A stretch of 64,000 bases of DNA, taken from NCBI GenBank assembly GCA_027050775.1, contig JALUBH010000018.1, positions 1 to 64,000 on the forward strand. The letters are read 5' to 3'. Shown one piece after another: positions 21,985 through 29,791 of this stretch. Each line of letters starts with the position of its first letter. Position 1 is the stretch's first letter. The position numbers were made by a program, and so were the translations under genes. The DNA comes from Campylobacteraceae bacterium (GTDB taxonomy: Bacteria > Campylobacterota > Campylobacteria > Campylobacterales > Sulfurospirillaceae). The notes below the pieces were generated by a model. It did not search any database, had not been told where the DNA came from, and was given only the letters and a program-made list of their open reading frames with translations.

Positions 21985-22014
21985 GAGAAGGGCTTCATGC
22001 CCTCTCTATTTTTT
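21985..22014 (+). terminator. Rho-independent terminator of the DsrE-like gene
   Basis: GAGAAGGGC pairs with GCCCTCTC over loop TTCAT with one bulged A, followed by TATTTTTT. It overlaps the 3' end of the convergent peptide-binding protein gene. Confidence 0.75.
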
Positions 22015-23499
22015 CCACTCTATTTCGTTGTGCATTACTCCTATGATTGAGGGGCTAACTGGGTGAATTTTTTTATTTACCACTGTTATAGAGTTTGGTA
22101 TCACTAAAAAAAGATACGGATTGTCATCTACTATAAGTTTGAAGATTTTTCTATAAATCGTATTGAATTTTTTGTTATCTACCGTTCTTTCCGCCTTTTT
22201 TATGAGTCTGTCAACTTCTTTGTTTTTGTATCCTACAAAGTTAAAACCACCTTTTTTGTATGATTTACTATCCCATATACTATAGGCGTCTGGCTTGAGA
22301 CCTACCGACCAAGCCAAAAGTACCGTTTCAAATCTTTTGGGCATCACTACTGTATTTAAAAATGCCTGCCACTCCATAATGCGAAGTTTTACTATGACTC
22401 CTGCTTTTCTTAGTTGTGATTGAAGAATCTGAGCCATATAAGTTCTAGTTGAGCCTGTATTTGTCGAGAGCTCAAATGTCAAAGGGTGATGCTTGTCATA
22501 CCCAGCTTTTTTTAACAACTCTTTTGCTTTTTTGATATCTTGTTTTGGTGCTTTGACACTTGGATTAAATGCTCCGGTCCCCGGCAGAAATGGTCCCGTG
22601 CAAACTCTTGCGTGTCCAAAAAACATAACCTTTGCCAACTCTTGTCTATTTATAGCTAAAGAGAGGGCTTTGCGCACAATAGGATTTTGAAACTTTGGAT
22701 TTTTGAGATTAAAACCTAGATACGAGTATGAGTGAGAGGGCGACTCATATATACTAAATTTTTTTTTAAAATCACTATCTATCTGCCTTTCAAGCTGCAA
22801 AGGTGTAAGCGAGCCCACATCTAAAAGACCGGATTTTAGCATCAAAAAATTTGCTGAACTATCCGGTAGATAATGATAAACTATCTCATCAATATATGGT
22901 TTATGTATAAAGTAATTTGGATTTGCTTTTAAAACTATATCGCTTGATATGGAAAATTTTTTGAGTATATAAGGTCCTGTACCGATGGGTGCTTGATTAA
23001 ATTTACTCGTCATCATATTTTTTTCATTTTTTAGCAAATGTTCCGGTAAAATCTCCATCATCCAAGTTTCAAGTGCTTTGAAATACGGATATTTATATAC
23101 CACTTTTACCGTATAGTCATCCAATGCCGTAACACTCTTTATGTGCTTAAAACTCGACGAGTAAGGCGTGAAGATACGAGGTGAAATGATAGTTTTATAA
23201 GTAAAAAGTACATCTTTAGCGCTAAATGGTGCTCCATCACTCCACTTCACACCATGCCTTAGATGAAAAATCAGCGTAGTGTCATTTTTAAACTCATAAC
23301 TACTAGCTAGCATCATCTTAATTTTAGCATTCTTATCATAAGTGATAAGGGAGTTAAATATCCACTGCGTTATCTCACTGCTAGAGCTATCGGTTGAGAG
23401 TATAGGATTTATACGACTAGGATTTGCACTGATAGAGAGTCTAAGCGTTGAAGCAAAAACAGAGGCAAAAAGAGTTAAAAAAATTATTAAAAATTTCAT
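22006..23499 (-). CDS. Orphan periplasmic peptide-binding protein (SBP_bac_5)
   Basis: 497 residues with a signal peptide (about 1-16). It has the family-5 extracellular solute-binding fold: FHLRHGVKWSDGAPFSAKDV (about 75-95), GTGPYILKKF and the C-terminal lobe with VNKKIHPVSPS. It is a distant paralogue of dppA in this window. No permease or ATPase genes lie nearby, so it either feeds the dpp permease or belongs to a transporter encoded elsewhere. It is followed after 18 bp by nothing on its strand except the terminator region; the DUF945-like gene upstream ends 18 bp before it and may be co-transcribed. Confidence 0.82.
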   Translation of the reverse strand: MKFLIIFLTLFASVFASTLRLSISANPSRINPILSTDSSSSEITQWIFNSLITYDKNAKIKMMLASSYEFKNDTTLIFHLRHGVKWSDGAPFSAKDVLFTYKTIISPRIFTPYSSSFKHIKSVTALDDYTVKVVYKYPYFKALETWMMEILPEHLLKNEKNMMTSKFNQAPIGTGPYILKKFSISSDIVLKANPNYFIHKPYIDEIVYHYLPDSSANFLMLKSGLLDVGSLTPLQLERQIDSDFKKKFSIYESPSHSYSYLGFNLKNPKFQNPIVRKALSLAINRQELAKVMFFGHARVCTGPFLPGTGAFNPSVKAPKQDIKKAKELLKKAGYDKHHPLTFELSTNTGSTRTYMAQILQSQLRKAGVIVKLRIMEWQAFLNTVVMPKRFETVLLAWSVGLKPDAYSIWDSKSYKKGGFNFVGYKNKEVDRLIKKAERTVDNKKFNTIYRKIFKLIVDDNPYLFLVIPNSITVVNKKIHPVSPSIIGVMHNEIEWKK

Positions 23500-24961: not shown

Positions 24962-25040
24962 AAAAAAAGCGTCCGAGGTGGGCATCTCGGACGCTAATCT
25001 TAAAAACATATTCGTTTTAAAAGGAGGGTTGCGTCTTGGT
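24962..25040 (-). ncRNA. Predicted small RNA, copy 1, with anti-Shine-Dalgarno 5' end
   Basis: About 79 nt on the minus strand. The predicted 5' end is ACCAAGACGCAACCCUCCUU, containing a single-stranded CCCUCCUUUU that is complementary to Shine-Dalgarno sequences. A weak hairpin (AAAAC/GUUUU) follows, then a terminator: AGCGUCCGAG pairs with CUCGGACGCU across loop AUGCCCAC, followed by seven U. A TATAAT sits at -12 to -7. No reading frame of note is present. A second copy at 27212-27294 has the same architecture with one compensatory stem change, so the structure is selected. I do not recognise a named family. Confidence 0.8.
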
Positions 25041-25046
25041 AATGGA

Positions 25047-25052
25047 ATTATA
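25047..25052 (-). promoter_or_regulatory. -10 box of small RNA copy 1
   Basis: Perfect TATAAT on the minus strand (TCCTATAATTCC). Homology with the second copy extends about 20 bp upstream of it, so the promoter was duplicated with the gene. It is divergent from the TATAAT at 25108. Confidence 0.7.
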
Positions 25053-25107
25053 GGAGTTTATATTAAATAGTTTCCAACACACATCAAACATAAAGTAAAC
25101 AATATGG

Positions 25108-25113
25108 TATAAT
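25108..25113 (+). promoter_or_regulatory. -10 box of the DUF234-antiporter pair
   Basis: Perfect TATAAT; transcription would begin near 25120, giving a leader of about 19 nt to the proposed AUA start at 25139 with AAAGG at 25127-25131. This tight leader argues that translation starts near 25139 and not at the first ATG, 25208. Confidence 0.6.
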
Positions 25114-25138
25114 TTGTGTAAATTTTAAAGGATTTATT

Positions 25139-26008
25139 ATAGATATAGATAAACTTTCACTAAAAGAGCAATTTAGCAACTTTTGCAAAATAAATAGAAT
25201 AGAAAATATGGAGAGTGCTGTAGAGTATTTTGCTGTTTTTGGAGGTCTTGGAATTGAAATAGATACGACAATACCTCTAGTTGAGCTCATACAAAAACAT
25301 ATCTTGGACAGATATAAATATCTAAGAAACGATATAAGCGCATATATCACAAAAGATGAGCTTCTCCCCTGTGTTCTAACCGGAGCAGCTACCGGAGATC
25401 GCAGGACCAATTCCTCTTTTAAGCGAGCTAAAGTTGCTTACAATGACGGTATGGACTGCATTGAAGATCTGCTTGATTTGGGGGTTATAAAGCTTGAATC
25501 ATCGTTTGAGCAAAATTTTATATCTGATAGGATTTTATTTACTTCACCTTTTGTGCGTTTTTGGTTTGCTTTTATTTCTCCCCTTTTTAGAGGCATAAAA
25601 GAGGGTAATTATAGTGAATTTTACGAGAATTTTAACAATAGGAAAATGGAATTTAATCAACTTATATTTGAACAACTCTGTTTTGAGTTTGTAAAACTAC
25701 ACTTTGCAGATGAAAAGATATACAATATCGGAAGATATTGGGATGAAAAAAGAGAGATAAATCTACTAGCCAAAACCAAAGCAGGGAAAATCATCGCAGG
25801 AAGTTGTAGATATATAAGTTCTAAAGTAAAAAAAAGTGAATTTACTAAATTGAAAGAGAGTTGTAAAATCTTAAAAAGTAAGCCAGATCTTTTTCTACTT
25901 TTTGCAAAAAAGGGGTATACGAGCGAATTGAAGTCAATGAAAAATGAAACTCTCAAACTCTTTACATGTAGAAATTTCAAGATGCTCATAGAAGATGAAT
26001 ACAGATAA
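25139..26008 (+). CDS. DUF234-domain protein, probable AUA start
   Basis: 289 residues if started at the ATA at 25139 (IDIDKLSLKEQFSNFCK...), 266 if at the first ATG (25208). The upstream 23 codons read as normal coding sequence and the ATA lies seven bases after AAAGG. The C-terminal half resembles DUF234, the PD-(D/E)XK-like domain found behind archaeal-type DEXX ATPases: FTSPFVRFWFAFISP, then FEQLCFEFVK and a possible nuclease-like core (YWDEKREINLLAK...GKIIAGSCR). The ATPase domain is absent. It overlaps the antiporter gene by 14 bp. Function unknown. Confidence 0.7.
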   Translation: MDIDKLSLKEQFSNFCKINRIENMESAVEYFAVFGGLGIEIDTTIPLVELIQKHILDRYKYLRNDISAYITKDELLPCVLTGAATGDRRTNSSFKRAKVAYNDGMDCIEDLLDLGVIKLESSFEQNFISDRILFTSPFVRFWFAFISPLFRGIKEGNYSEFYENFNNRKMEFNQLIFEQLCFEFVKLHFADEKIYNIGRYWDEKREINLLAKTKAGKIIAGSCRYISSKVKKSEFTKLKESCKILKSKPDLFLLFAKKGYTSELKSMKNETLKLFTCRNFKMLIEDEYR

Positions 26009-27080
26009 ACTATTGGCTGAAAAAGCTCTGTGGTTATCGCTATTTTGCCTTTTGGGACTATTTTTACTTGAACATACGCTTGAAAGCAGTTTGCAAGGGA
26101 ATGTTGTTGGCTTTATAATTATTTTTTTTGTTATTATATACTCTGCTATCAATGTTGCCCATCATGCTGAAAAACTTGCACAAAAATATGGGGAACCTTA
26201 TGGAACTCTTATATTGACGATCTCTGCAGTTATAGTTGAGATAGTCATCATCGTCATCATGATGACAAATGCTCATAGTCCCACACTAGCAAGAGACACT
26301 ATATACTCAGCCGTTATGCTCGATATAAATGGTCTCTTAGGTATTTGTGCTTTCATAGGTGGTATAAAATATGGCGAACAAAAGTACAATATGGACTCTT
26401 CAAACTCTTACATATCCATGCTTTTGGTTGCGTTTTTAGTAGCCATGGTTTTACCTCATTTTATACCGGATAAAAATCTGATAATGTACGAAAATTTTAC
26501 AGTCGTGGCTTTCATATTGCTTTATGCCTTGTTTACAAAAATACAGCTCAAGAATCACAAGTATTTTTTCACATATAATTATCATAAAAACGAAAAAACC
26601 GAGCAAGAGCATATCGATACTCAAAAAATCAATGGTCTTTATCACTCGACAATACTCAGTGTTTCCATCATCATCATAGGATTATTGTCTGAGCTTCTAG
26701 CACTATTTATGGACAATAGTATCGAATCCATAGGGCTTCCTATGGCACTTGGGGCTTTTACCGTAGCTGTTATATCAGCTTCACCGGAACTAATAACCGC
26801 TATAAAATCAGCCTCAAATAACAATATGCAAACCGTTATAAATATAGCTTTAGGTGCGAGCCTGGCAACTCTTCTTTTAACAGTCCCTAGCGTAATAATA
26901 GTAGCCGAAATTATGCACTTTAGTATTGATTTAGCCTTAACACCACTTCAAATGACTATGATAGGCATAACTTTAGTAGTAAGCATTGTGCACTTCAACG
27001 ATGGCGAAACAAATATACTAGAGGGATTTTTGAATTTCATATTATTTATAGTTTTTTTCTTTTTGATATTTGTAGAGTAA
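25995..27080 (+). CDS. chaA: Cation/H+ antiporter, ChaA/CaCA family
   Basis: 361 residues, 10-11 predicted transmembrane helices in two homologous halves. The two alpha-repeat signatures are visible: GEPYGTLILTISAVIVEIVI (about 60-80) with a Glu in the ion path, and AFTVAVISASPELITAIKSA (about 255-275) with the partner Glu. The short acidic or His-rich linker between the halves (about 190-215) is typical. It exports Ca2+ (or Na+/K+) against protons. It is coupled to the DUF234 gene, and its stop codon is embedded in the left arm of the inverted-repeat element. Confidence 0.85.
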   Translation: MNTDKLLAEKALWLSLFCLLGLFLLEHTLESSLQGNVVGFIIIFFVIIYSAINVAHHAEKLAQKYGEPYGTLILTISAVIVEIVIIVIMMTNAHSPTLARDTIYSAVMLDINGLLGICAFIGGIKYGEQKYNMDSSNSYISMLLVAFLVAMVLPHFIPDKNLIMYENFTVVAFILLYALFTKIQLKNHKYFFTYNYHKNEKTEQEHIDTQKINGLYHSTILSVSIIIIGLLSELLALFMDNSIESIGLPMALGAFTVAVISASPELITAIKSASNNNMQTVINIALGASLATLLLTVPSVIIVAEIMHFSIDLALTPLQMTMIGITLVVSIVHFNDGETNILEGFLNFILFIVFFFLIFVE

Positions 27081-27194
27081 ATATTTTATATTATTTATGT
27101 TAGAGCGACTCTGCAACCAATGGGTCAAAATCTTTGATTTTGGGGTACCCATAGTGTGAAGCCTTAGCGACAACATAAATAATATAAAATATTT
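27079..27194. repeat. 116-bp element with 23-nt perfect inverted repeats and nested hairpins
   Basis: Left arm 27079-27101 and right arm 27172-27194 are exact reverse complements (AAATATTTTATATTATTTATGTT split as two parts of under 20 in the text: AAATATTTTATATT then ATTTATGTT). The 70-bp interior folds further: AGAG/CTCT around CGA (27102-27112) and a two-part hairpin, ATGGGT/ACCCAT enclosing CAAAATC/GATTTTG (27120-27152). The left arm contains the antiporter stop codon. The form suits a MITE-like insertion or a large terminator/processing structure. Confidence 0.7.
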
Positions 27195-27211
27195 GGTGAA
27201 ATTTTGGGCAT

Positions 27212-27294
27212 AAAAAAAGCGTTCGAGGTGGGCATCTCGAACGCTGATTTTAAAAAATATATTCGTTTTCTAAAAAGGAGGGTTGCGTCTTGGT
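27212..27294 (-). ncRNA. Predicted small RNA, copy 2
   Basis: About 83 nt on the minus strand, homologous to 24962-25040. The first 22 nt are identical, including the CCCUCCUUUU core. The middle is AU-rich and diverged by small insertions. The terminator stem is AGCGUUCGAG/CUCGAACGCU: the C-G pair of copy 1 is U-A here, with the same AUGCCCAC loop and seven U. Its -10 is TATACT. It lies between corA and the inverted-repeat element, so it may also be made from the corA 3' end. Confidence 0.78.
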
Positions 27295-27300
27295 AATGAA

Positions 27301-27306
27301 AGTATA
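27301..27306 (-). promoter_or_regulatory. -10 box of small RNA copy 2
   Basis: TATACT on the minus strand, at exactly the same distance from the ACCAAGACGC start as TATAAT in copy 1. The flank TATTTAACATATAATCC also matches copy 1. Confidence 0.6.
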
Positions 27307-27372
27307 GGATTATATGTTAAATAAAAAATAACCTTTTATAAATAAAAAGTAAATAAGAGTAATATTGTCCTA

Positions 27373-28896: not shown

Positions 28897-29286
28897 TTAT
28901 CTCTTAGAGAACTGAGGGCTTCTTCTTGCTTTTCTTCTACCAAATTTCTTTCTTTCGACGATTCTTGAATCTCTCGTAAGAAGTCCGTAAGGCTTCAAAA
29001 CTGCTCTATAATCTTCATCCATACTAGCCAATGCTTTTGAAATACCATGACGCAATGCATCTGCTTGAGCTGAGTATCCACCACCAAAAGTTGTAGCTTT
29101 TATATCTAGGCTTTCAAGTTGTTTAGTAAGTTCTAGTGGTTGTCTGACTCTTTTTTTGATAGTCTCATGACCGCCAAGCCAAGCTTCAAAATCTATACCG
29201 TTTACCACTATATTTCCGCTACCTGCTGCTACCCATACTTTTGCGATTGCAGTTTTTCTTTTTCCGGTTGCATATACTTTTGCCAT
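28897..29286 (-). CDS. rpsI: 30S ribosomal protein S9
   Basis: 129 residues. The N-terminus [15 protein letters not shown], the central [19 protein letters not shown] and the basic C-terminus ending RRSPQFSKR, which reaches the P-site tRNA, are all characteristic. It follows rplM after one base, the conserved bacterial order L13-S9. The Shine-Dalgarno GAGGAG lies in the end of rplM. Confidence 0.97.
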
Positions 29287-29287
29287 C

Positions 29288-29719
29288 TTATTTCTCCTCC
29301 ACTTTGCTTATTTGCGCTGTGTGAGGATGCTCACTGCCAGCATATACTTTTAGTTTTTTTATCATACTTTTAGCAAGGTTTGTTTTTGGCAACATACCCC
29401 TAATACCAAGTCTATACAATTTAGCAGGATTATTTTTTAGTAAATCTTCGAGTTTATCACTCTTGACTCCACCAAAGTATCCTGTGTGCCTATGATAAAG
29501 CTTAGTACTTAGTTTATTTCCGCTAAACTCGACTTTTTCTGCATTGATGATGACTACAAAGTCACCACAATCAACATTTGGAGTAAAGTAAGGCTTATGC
29601 TTACCTCTTAAAAGTGTTGCTACTTCAGTCAAAACTCTACCAAATTTTTTACCTGCAGCATCCACAACAATCCAATCTCTTTTTACCTCATTAGGCTTAA
29701 TAGCTCTTGTAGCCTTCAT
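29288..29719 (-). CDS. rplM: 50S ribosomal protein L13
   Basis: 143 residues from the ATG at 29719, eight bases after AAAGG; a longer in-frame start at 29752 adds a non-family extension and is rejected. Signature features: [22 protein letters not shown], the [11 protein letters not shown] strand and [19 protein letters not shown]. It is an early-assembly large-subunit protein. First gene of the L13-S9 operon. Confidence 0.96.
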
Positions 29720-29791
29720 TTTGAAACCTTTATATCTGTTTTTGAAAGGCAAATTGTAGTGGAATAATCATTAAATATAGCTGAATTTCAG

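Follow-up and report, generated by a model that had tools for sequence, protein, structure and literature searches.

A multicopy small RNA family with a putative anti-Shine-Dalgarno 5' end in Sulfurospirillaceae and its relatives in Campylobacter

The window analysed here is a stretch of 64,000 nucleotides from a genome of the Sulfurospirillaceae (Campylobacteraceae bacterium, assembly GCA_027050775.1, contig JALUBH010000018.1). Between rpsI on one side and the genes for a 466-aa protein and a family-5 solute-binding protein (SBP) on the other, it carries corA, a Ca/cation exchanger gene and a DUF234 gene, and one copy of a predicted small RNA (sRNA) stands on each side of the exchanger-DUF234 pair. 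The features considered below are as follows.

22006-23499, minus strand: SBP gene (Pfam SBP_bac_5, E 7.8e-88), the downstream anchor of the locus
24962-25040, minus strand: predicted sRNA copy 1, ~79 nt, covariance-model score 97.6 bits
24968-24995, minus strand: terminator hairpin of copy 1, 10 pairs, loop AUGCCCAC at 24985-24978, then 7 U
25019-25028, minus strand: anti-Shine-Dalgarno segment of copy 1, CCCUCCUUUU, unpaired in the predicted fold
25047-25100, minus strand: predicted promoter of copy 1, -10 box TATAAT at 25052-25047, T-rich boxes upstream with a period of ~11 bp
27212-27294, minus strand: predicted sRNA copy 2, ~83 nt, 109.4 bits, identical to the copy at G000:C45
27218-27245, minus strand: terminator hairpin of copy 2, 10 pairs, loop AUGCCCAC at 27235-27228, then 7 U
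27272-27282, minus strand: anti-Shine-Dalgarno segment of copy 2, CCCUCCUUUUU, unpaired in the predicted fold
27301-27360, minus strand: predicted promoter of copy 2, -10 box TATACT at 27306-27301, periodic T-rich boxes upstream
28897-29286, minus strand: rpsI, an ORF named from its sequence, upstream anchor, synteny by tblastn
29288-29752, minus strand: rplM, an ORF named from its sequence, upstream anchor, synteny by tblastn

A preliminary description of this DNA had reported two minus-strand copies with their own promoters, hairpins and runs of seven U, and direct reading of the strand bore this out to the base; a mechanical terminator scan also picked up both hairpins, with 10 pairs each. 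The 5' ends are identical, as reported, over 26 nt (CATTACCAAGACGCAACCCTCCTTTT) rather than 22. The compensatory C-G to U-A exchange between the two stems is real, and the CCCUCC segment is unpaired in the predicted fold of both copies, in keeping with the suggestion that the 5' end is free to pair. Copy 2 matches copy 1 at 90% over ~86 nt (E = 1.8e-26). Because of this match and of two further copies in the genome, the likeness is not due to chance.

The term "duplicated" is accurate for the window and understates the rest: the source genome (2.19 Mb, 48 contigs) holds four copies, the two outside the window lying at C45:12029-12116 and C20:240983-241069, and most relatives hold several. Copy 2 and the C45 copy do not differ over 88 nt, and their similarity extends from ~76 bp upstream of the CATTACC start to ~91 bp downstream of it. 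These borders indicate that the duplicated unit is exactly promoter, RNA and terminator. Movement as such an exact unit of ~167 bp could also be read as the mark of a mobile repeat, or of a set of terminators with no regulatory function. We consider this extremely improbable, as promoter, 5' core and loop are kept across genera, syntenic copies occur in two families, covariation is strong and no terminal repeats were seen.

An initial blastn comparison with 60 relatives already made multiple copies in the genus evident. A first covariance model, applied to 397 genomes of the phylum, gave matches at E up to 0.01 in 24, of which 22 belong to the window's family. A second model (R2), built from 45 distinct copies, recovered 132 copies in 41 of the 44 genomes of this family, in all five genera and at one to nine copies per genome; the three genomes with no match are incomplete assemblies (77-92% complete). 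The preliminary description had called for such a search of Campylobacterota genomes and had set in advance what would count against it, namely homologues with non-compensatory stems and unconserved 5' ends. The family passed this test. Its members share a 5' ACCUCC core, a covarying terminator with a UGCCC loop and a periodic sigma-70 promoter, and we regard the RNA as almost certainly an sRNA gene, in support of the original proposal that each copy is a small-RNA gene with a promoter and a terminator of its own. Rfam 15 returned no match over the window (the best sub-threshold score was 24 bits, versus 50 for rdlD), and the family was not found in the open-access literature on Sulfurospirillum and Sulfurimonas sRNAs, on anti-Shine-Dalgarno sRNAs of Epsilonproteobacteria or on the motif itself, in line with the earlier remark that no described family with this sequence was known. 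Two matches were dismissed: one in G292 (L118) has no promoter or loop in common with the family, and another (L135) is limited to the 3' half.

We then considered which parts of the RNA are conserved. All 10 pairs of the terminator stem show compensatory changes among the 45 distinct copies, with 127 cells changed on both sides (36 in shuffles) and 96.2% paired. The covariation score was 0.784, compared with 0.337 for shuffled stems and at most 0.197 when the partner was slid. These results support selection for pairing, as had been concluded from the single exchange. Because any conserved terminator should show covariation, however, the loop UGCCC and the 5' core are stronger evidence than the stem. 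In Sulfurospirillaceae copies the loop reads U-UGCCC-R with almost no variation; UGCCC occurs in 72 of the copies examined, ~10 of them with a poor or absent U-tract, and all three copies in G009 keep stem and loop despite a poor or missing U-tract. The 5' core ACCUCCUUUUUG hardly varies, also in copies that have lost the U-tract, and the anti-Shine-Dalgarno segment (CCCUCCUUUU in copy 1) is nearly invariant across the 45 distinct copies. In many relatives CCUCC can sit in the loop of a weak A/U hairpin. This hairpin, ACAAAAA-CCUCC-UUUUUGU, was rejected as a selected helix: it is 84.4% paired, shows no compensatory change and does no better than shuffles. In the cluster of three G009 copies (L049, G009:C1:2050069-2051485), no U directly follows the hairpin; a U-rich stretch starts ~10 nt past it, preceded by ACCUC, ACCCUCC or ACCUUC.

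An alignment of the -10 region of 69 copies revealed an invariant TATA and final T (TATAMT), TTTA at -15 to -12 in 68-69 of the 69, and further TT peaks near -25, -36 and -47 in the position profile. In C. jejuni, a periodic T-rich signal replaces the -35 box of sigma-70 promoters (PMC3847290), and the sRNA promoter appears to be of this ordinary Campylobacterota type. The upstream 11-bp repeats had been suspected to be a specific response-regulator site from their likeness to the TTTAAG repeats, 11 bp apart, that HP1043 binds (PMC5253667), but they fit an ordinary sigma-70 promoter. Two regulon pattern searches gave about as many matches as the control, and the spacing they used did not fit most of the genome's own sRNA promoters, so they are uninformative. 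A regulator at these repeats is possible; since the periodic T-rich signal is that of the ordinary C. jejuni promoter, we do not claim one. Some 55-65 nt upstream of the -10 box, many family copies (e.g., L026, L071, and L049) carry a short inverted repeat, AAGAG...CTCTT, which may terminate the gene before it or be bound by a regulator.

Beyond the window's family, model R2 found clear diverged members in a Campylobacteraceae-type family, f11 (G364, G424, G426, and G423; loop UUACCCG or UUCCCG), and weaker matches in the Campylobacter-type genera of f11. The 16-mer AAACCTCCTTTTTGTA occurs in 85 of the 397 phylum genomes, against two control matches in all 397; 78 of the 85 are in f11, six in the window's family, and one is a chance match. 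This lone match, in family f19 (L207), has neither promoter nor terminator in its flank. In the f11 copies a TATAAT-like box precedes the sequence GUCCRAYMAG...AAACCUCCUUUUUGUA, and the terminator after it is unrelated and in many cases has a C-rich loop; L145-L148 are intermediates that link the Sulfurospirillaceae and Campylobacter forms. Among f11 genera, those of the C. jejuni/C. lari type have the gene order rplM-rpsI-RNA-cadF and others rplM-rpsI-RNA-SBP-cadF; the order in the window's family is rplM-rpsI-(DUF523)-RNA-SBP, and cadF-like genes follow further on in several loci there. The Campylobacter rpsI-cadF RNA thus has the same 5' core and the same neighbourhood. Because orthologues with this core lie at this neighbourhood in both families, the comparison argues that the sRNA gene is older than the split of Sulfurospirillaceae and Campylobacteraceae. 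We infer that the position next to rplM-rpsI is ancestral and that the extra copies elsewhere are later duplications.

Two other elements adjoin the sRNA copies in the window. The DUF234 protein encoded at 25208-26008 is stand-alone, split from its usual ATPase part, and in the window's genus (G000, G001, G002, G003, G005, G006, and G009) its gene neighbours copies of the sRNA. A 116-bp MITE-like element, whose inverted terminal arms match perfectly over 23 bp (AAATATTTTATATTATTTATGTT), occupies 27079-27194, 17 bp past the copy 2 terminator; the genome holds at least four more copies, full or partial (C25 twice, C37, and C28).

The orthologues bear on which part of the RNA does the work. A genuine sRNA might act mainly through its UGCCC terminator loop, with the CCUCC 5' end secondary or stabilising. 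RepG offers a precedent for a terminator loop as the working part (PMC8295292), UGCCC is kept in Sulfurospirillaceae copies even where a proper U-tract is missing, and several Campylobacter orthologues have C-rich loops (ACCCAA, CCCCC). The part kept across both families is nevertheless the 5' core, and in some Campylobacter genera the loop differs and is not C-rich; we therefore judge a loop-centred action to be rather unlikely.

Published work on C. lari provides a view of expression. Hirayama et al. mapped the start of the cadF transcript by primer extension to within TTTTATAATTTCAAAG (PMC2751783). In L195, L197 and L199 this 16-mer falls exactly at the sRNA promoter, and the primer site used in the C. 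lari work is present in L197 as well. The mapped start, assigned to cadF in print, probably belongs to the sRNA promoter, so the published C. lari cadF promoter would be at least in part that of an sRNA. Since the start falls exactly on the orthologous promoter, that promoter appears to be active, and since it was detected reading back from cadF, some C. lari transcripts would pass the terminator into cadF. The Campylobacter-type leaders of cadF (L195-L213) hold the sRNA and a second -10 box nearer cadF; the published start corresponds to the distal of the two boxes.

Such read-through would be expected if the RNA worked in cis, as leader or attenuator for the envelope or transport gene that follows it (SBP or cadF), with the scattered copies as by-products, and in 17 of 75 copies the first downstream gene is indeed SBP. 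This reading is improbable in our estimation. Just past the terminator, SBP and cadF each have a TATAAT-like -10 box of their own, a good terminator is kept in most copies and unrelated genes adjoin the same RNA. Moreover, 20 of the 75 copies, window copy 2 included, oppose a convergent gene, which excludes a role only in cis for these 20. Together, the separate -10 boxes of SBP and cadF and the 20 convergent arrangements favour action in trans. In six loci (L040, L043, L049, L059, L082, and L101) the downstream SBP_bac_5 gene begins a few nt after a TATAAT box, and its mRNA therefore looks leaderless in several genera.

We propose that the RNA probably acts in trans by short, Hfq-independent pairing with Shine-Dalgarno sequences, the loop perhaps being a second contact. 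Each copy would be an independent unit, with a sigma-70 promoter, a transcript of ~80 nt and an intrinsic terminator. The exposed 5' CCUCC(UUUUUGU) would pair with the Shine-Dalgarno region of an mRNA and block 30S binding, the UGCCC loop might contact an mRNA or a protein and give specificity or stability, and several gene copies would raise the dose. Hfq was looked for and not found, as in other Campylobacterota with sRNAs that pair by C-rich or CU-rich segments, such as RepG (PMC8295292) and CjNC140 (PMC10470494). Target prediction covered the 62 ORFs of the window. At their start regions the 5' end reached a median of -9.45 kcal/mol, compared with -7.5 for internal sequence (p = 4e-6), and was only slightly better than its own shuffles there (-9.45 versus -8.81). 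The best-looking local candidate, corA, was dropped as a conserved target, its complementarity being gone in relatives. A search of the whole genome for extended mRNA complementarity, using the 15-mer AAAAGGAGGGTTGCG with up to two mismatches, gave three non-self matches against five in the control and revealed no dedicated antisense target. Repression of many messages by these RNAs is thus still a proposal: extended complementarity is absent from the mRNAs of this genome, and the gain in pairing energy at start regions is modest.

A fixed core in a genome with no long mRNA complement might instead point to a protein or ribosomal component as the partner. The core ACCUCCUUU equals the general bacterial 16S anti-Shine-Dalgarno tail, and ribosomal-protein genes adjoin the RNA, which could, for example, mimic the 16S 3' tail and titrate an initiation or ribosome-maturation factor. 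This is quite improbable in our view: no protein partner is known, the 16S segment that flanks the core is absent from it, and conserved Shine-Dalgarno pairing is a simpler account of the core. Within Shine-Dalgarno pairing, a broader and admittedly unlikely role would be that the ancient, vertically inherited RNA by rplM-rpsI modulates translation initiation in general, in a manner controlled by its dose. As a stand-in for the 16S anti-Shine-Dalgarno tail, it would compete, without Hfq, for the Shine-Dalgarno sequences of the whole transcriptome and couple ribosomal-protein output to envelope genes (SBP, cadF).

Trans-acting sRNAs that expose a C-rich anti-Shine-Dalgarno stretch are already known as a kind; the present family appears to be new. 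The alphaproteobacterial "cuckoo" RNAs are small, likewise come in several copies and expose an anti-Shine-Dalgarno CCUCC motif, CCUCCUCCC; they belong to another phylum, their motif differs and the sRNA described here has no Rfam match. RepG of H. pylori comes from a phylum without Hfq and targets by its C-rich terminator loop, but it lies between hp1043 and hp1044 and its loop, rich in C/U, pairs with homopolymeric G-repeats; the authors of that study found homologues in Helicobacter and none elsewhere, Sulfurospirillum included (PMC8295292). Our sRNA has rpsI, DUF523, CorA, SBP and CadF genes as neighbours, and its UGCCC loop is C-rich with no C/U run. The CU-rich segment of CjNC140 of C. 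jejuni binds AAGGAG sequences in EMSA (PMC10470494); CjNC140 is encoded upstream of porA, whereas the sRNA loci are not at porA. CJnc230/FlmE also has a single-stranded anti-Shine-Dalgarno stretch (CCUU), but is processed from the 3' end of the flgE mRNA, depends on RpoN and is described only in Campylobacter (PMC11187230); in 69 copies of our sRNA the -10 box is of sigma-70 type, and no flgE neighbour was seen. CjNC1 and CjNC4 are very short paralogous sRNAs that repress at ribosome-binding sites independently of Hfq, but they are <50 nt, of narrow phylogeny and transcribed from sigma-28 promoters (PMC4626219), whose -10 box (CGATwt) contrasts with TATAAT or TATACT here.

By BLAST, most C. 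jejuni sRNA candidates are species-restricted (Dugar et al., PMC3656092). The sRNA is traceable over two families by sequence, structure and gene order, at up to nine copies per genome, and is shared by Campylobacter and free-living organisms of the Sulfurospirillum kind. It would offer a testable, putatively ancestral case of Hfq-independent Shine-Dalgarno targeting. Its Campylobacter rpsI-cadF counterpart has the 5' core ACCUCCUUUUUGUA, its own -10 box, a terminator and the same neighbours, but differs in that stem and loop are unrelated in sequence, it is usually single copy and the literature assigns it to cadF. It may correspond to one of the candidates numbered in C. jejuni, and CJnc160 would fit by map order.
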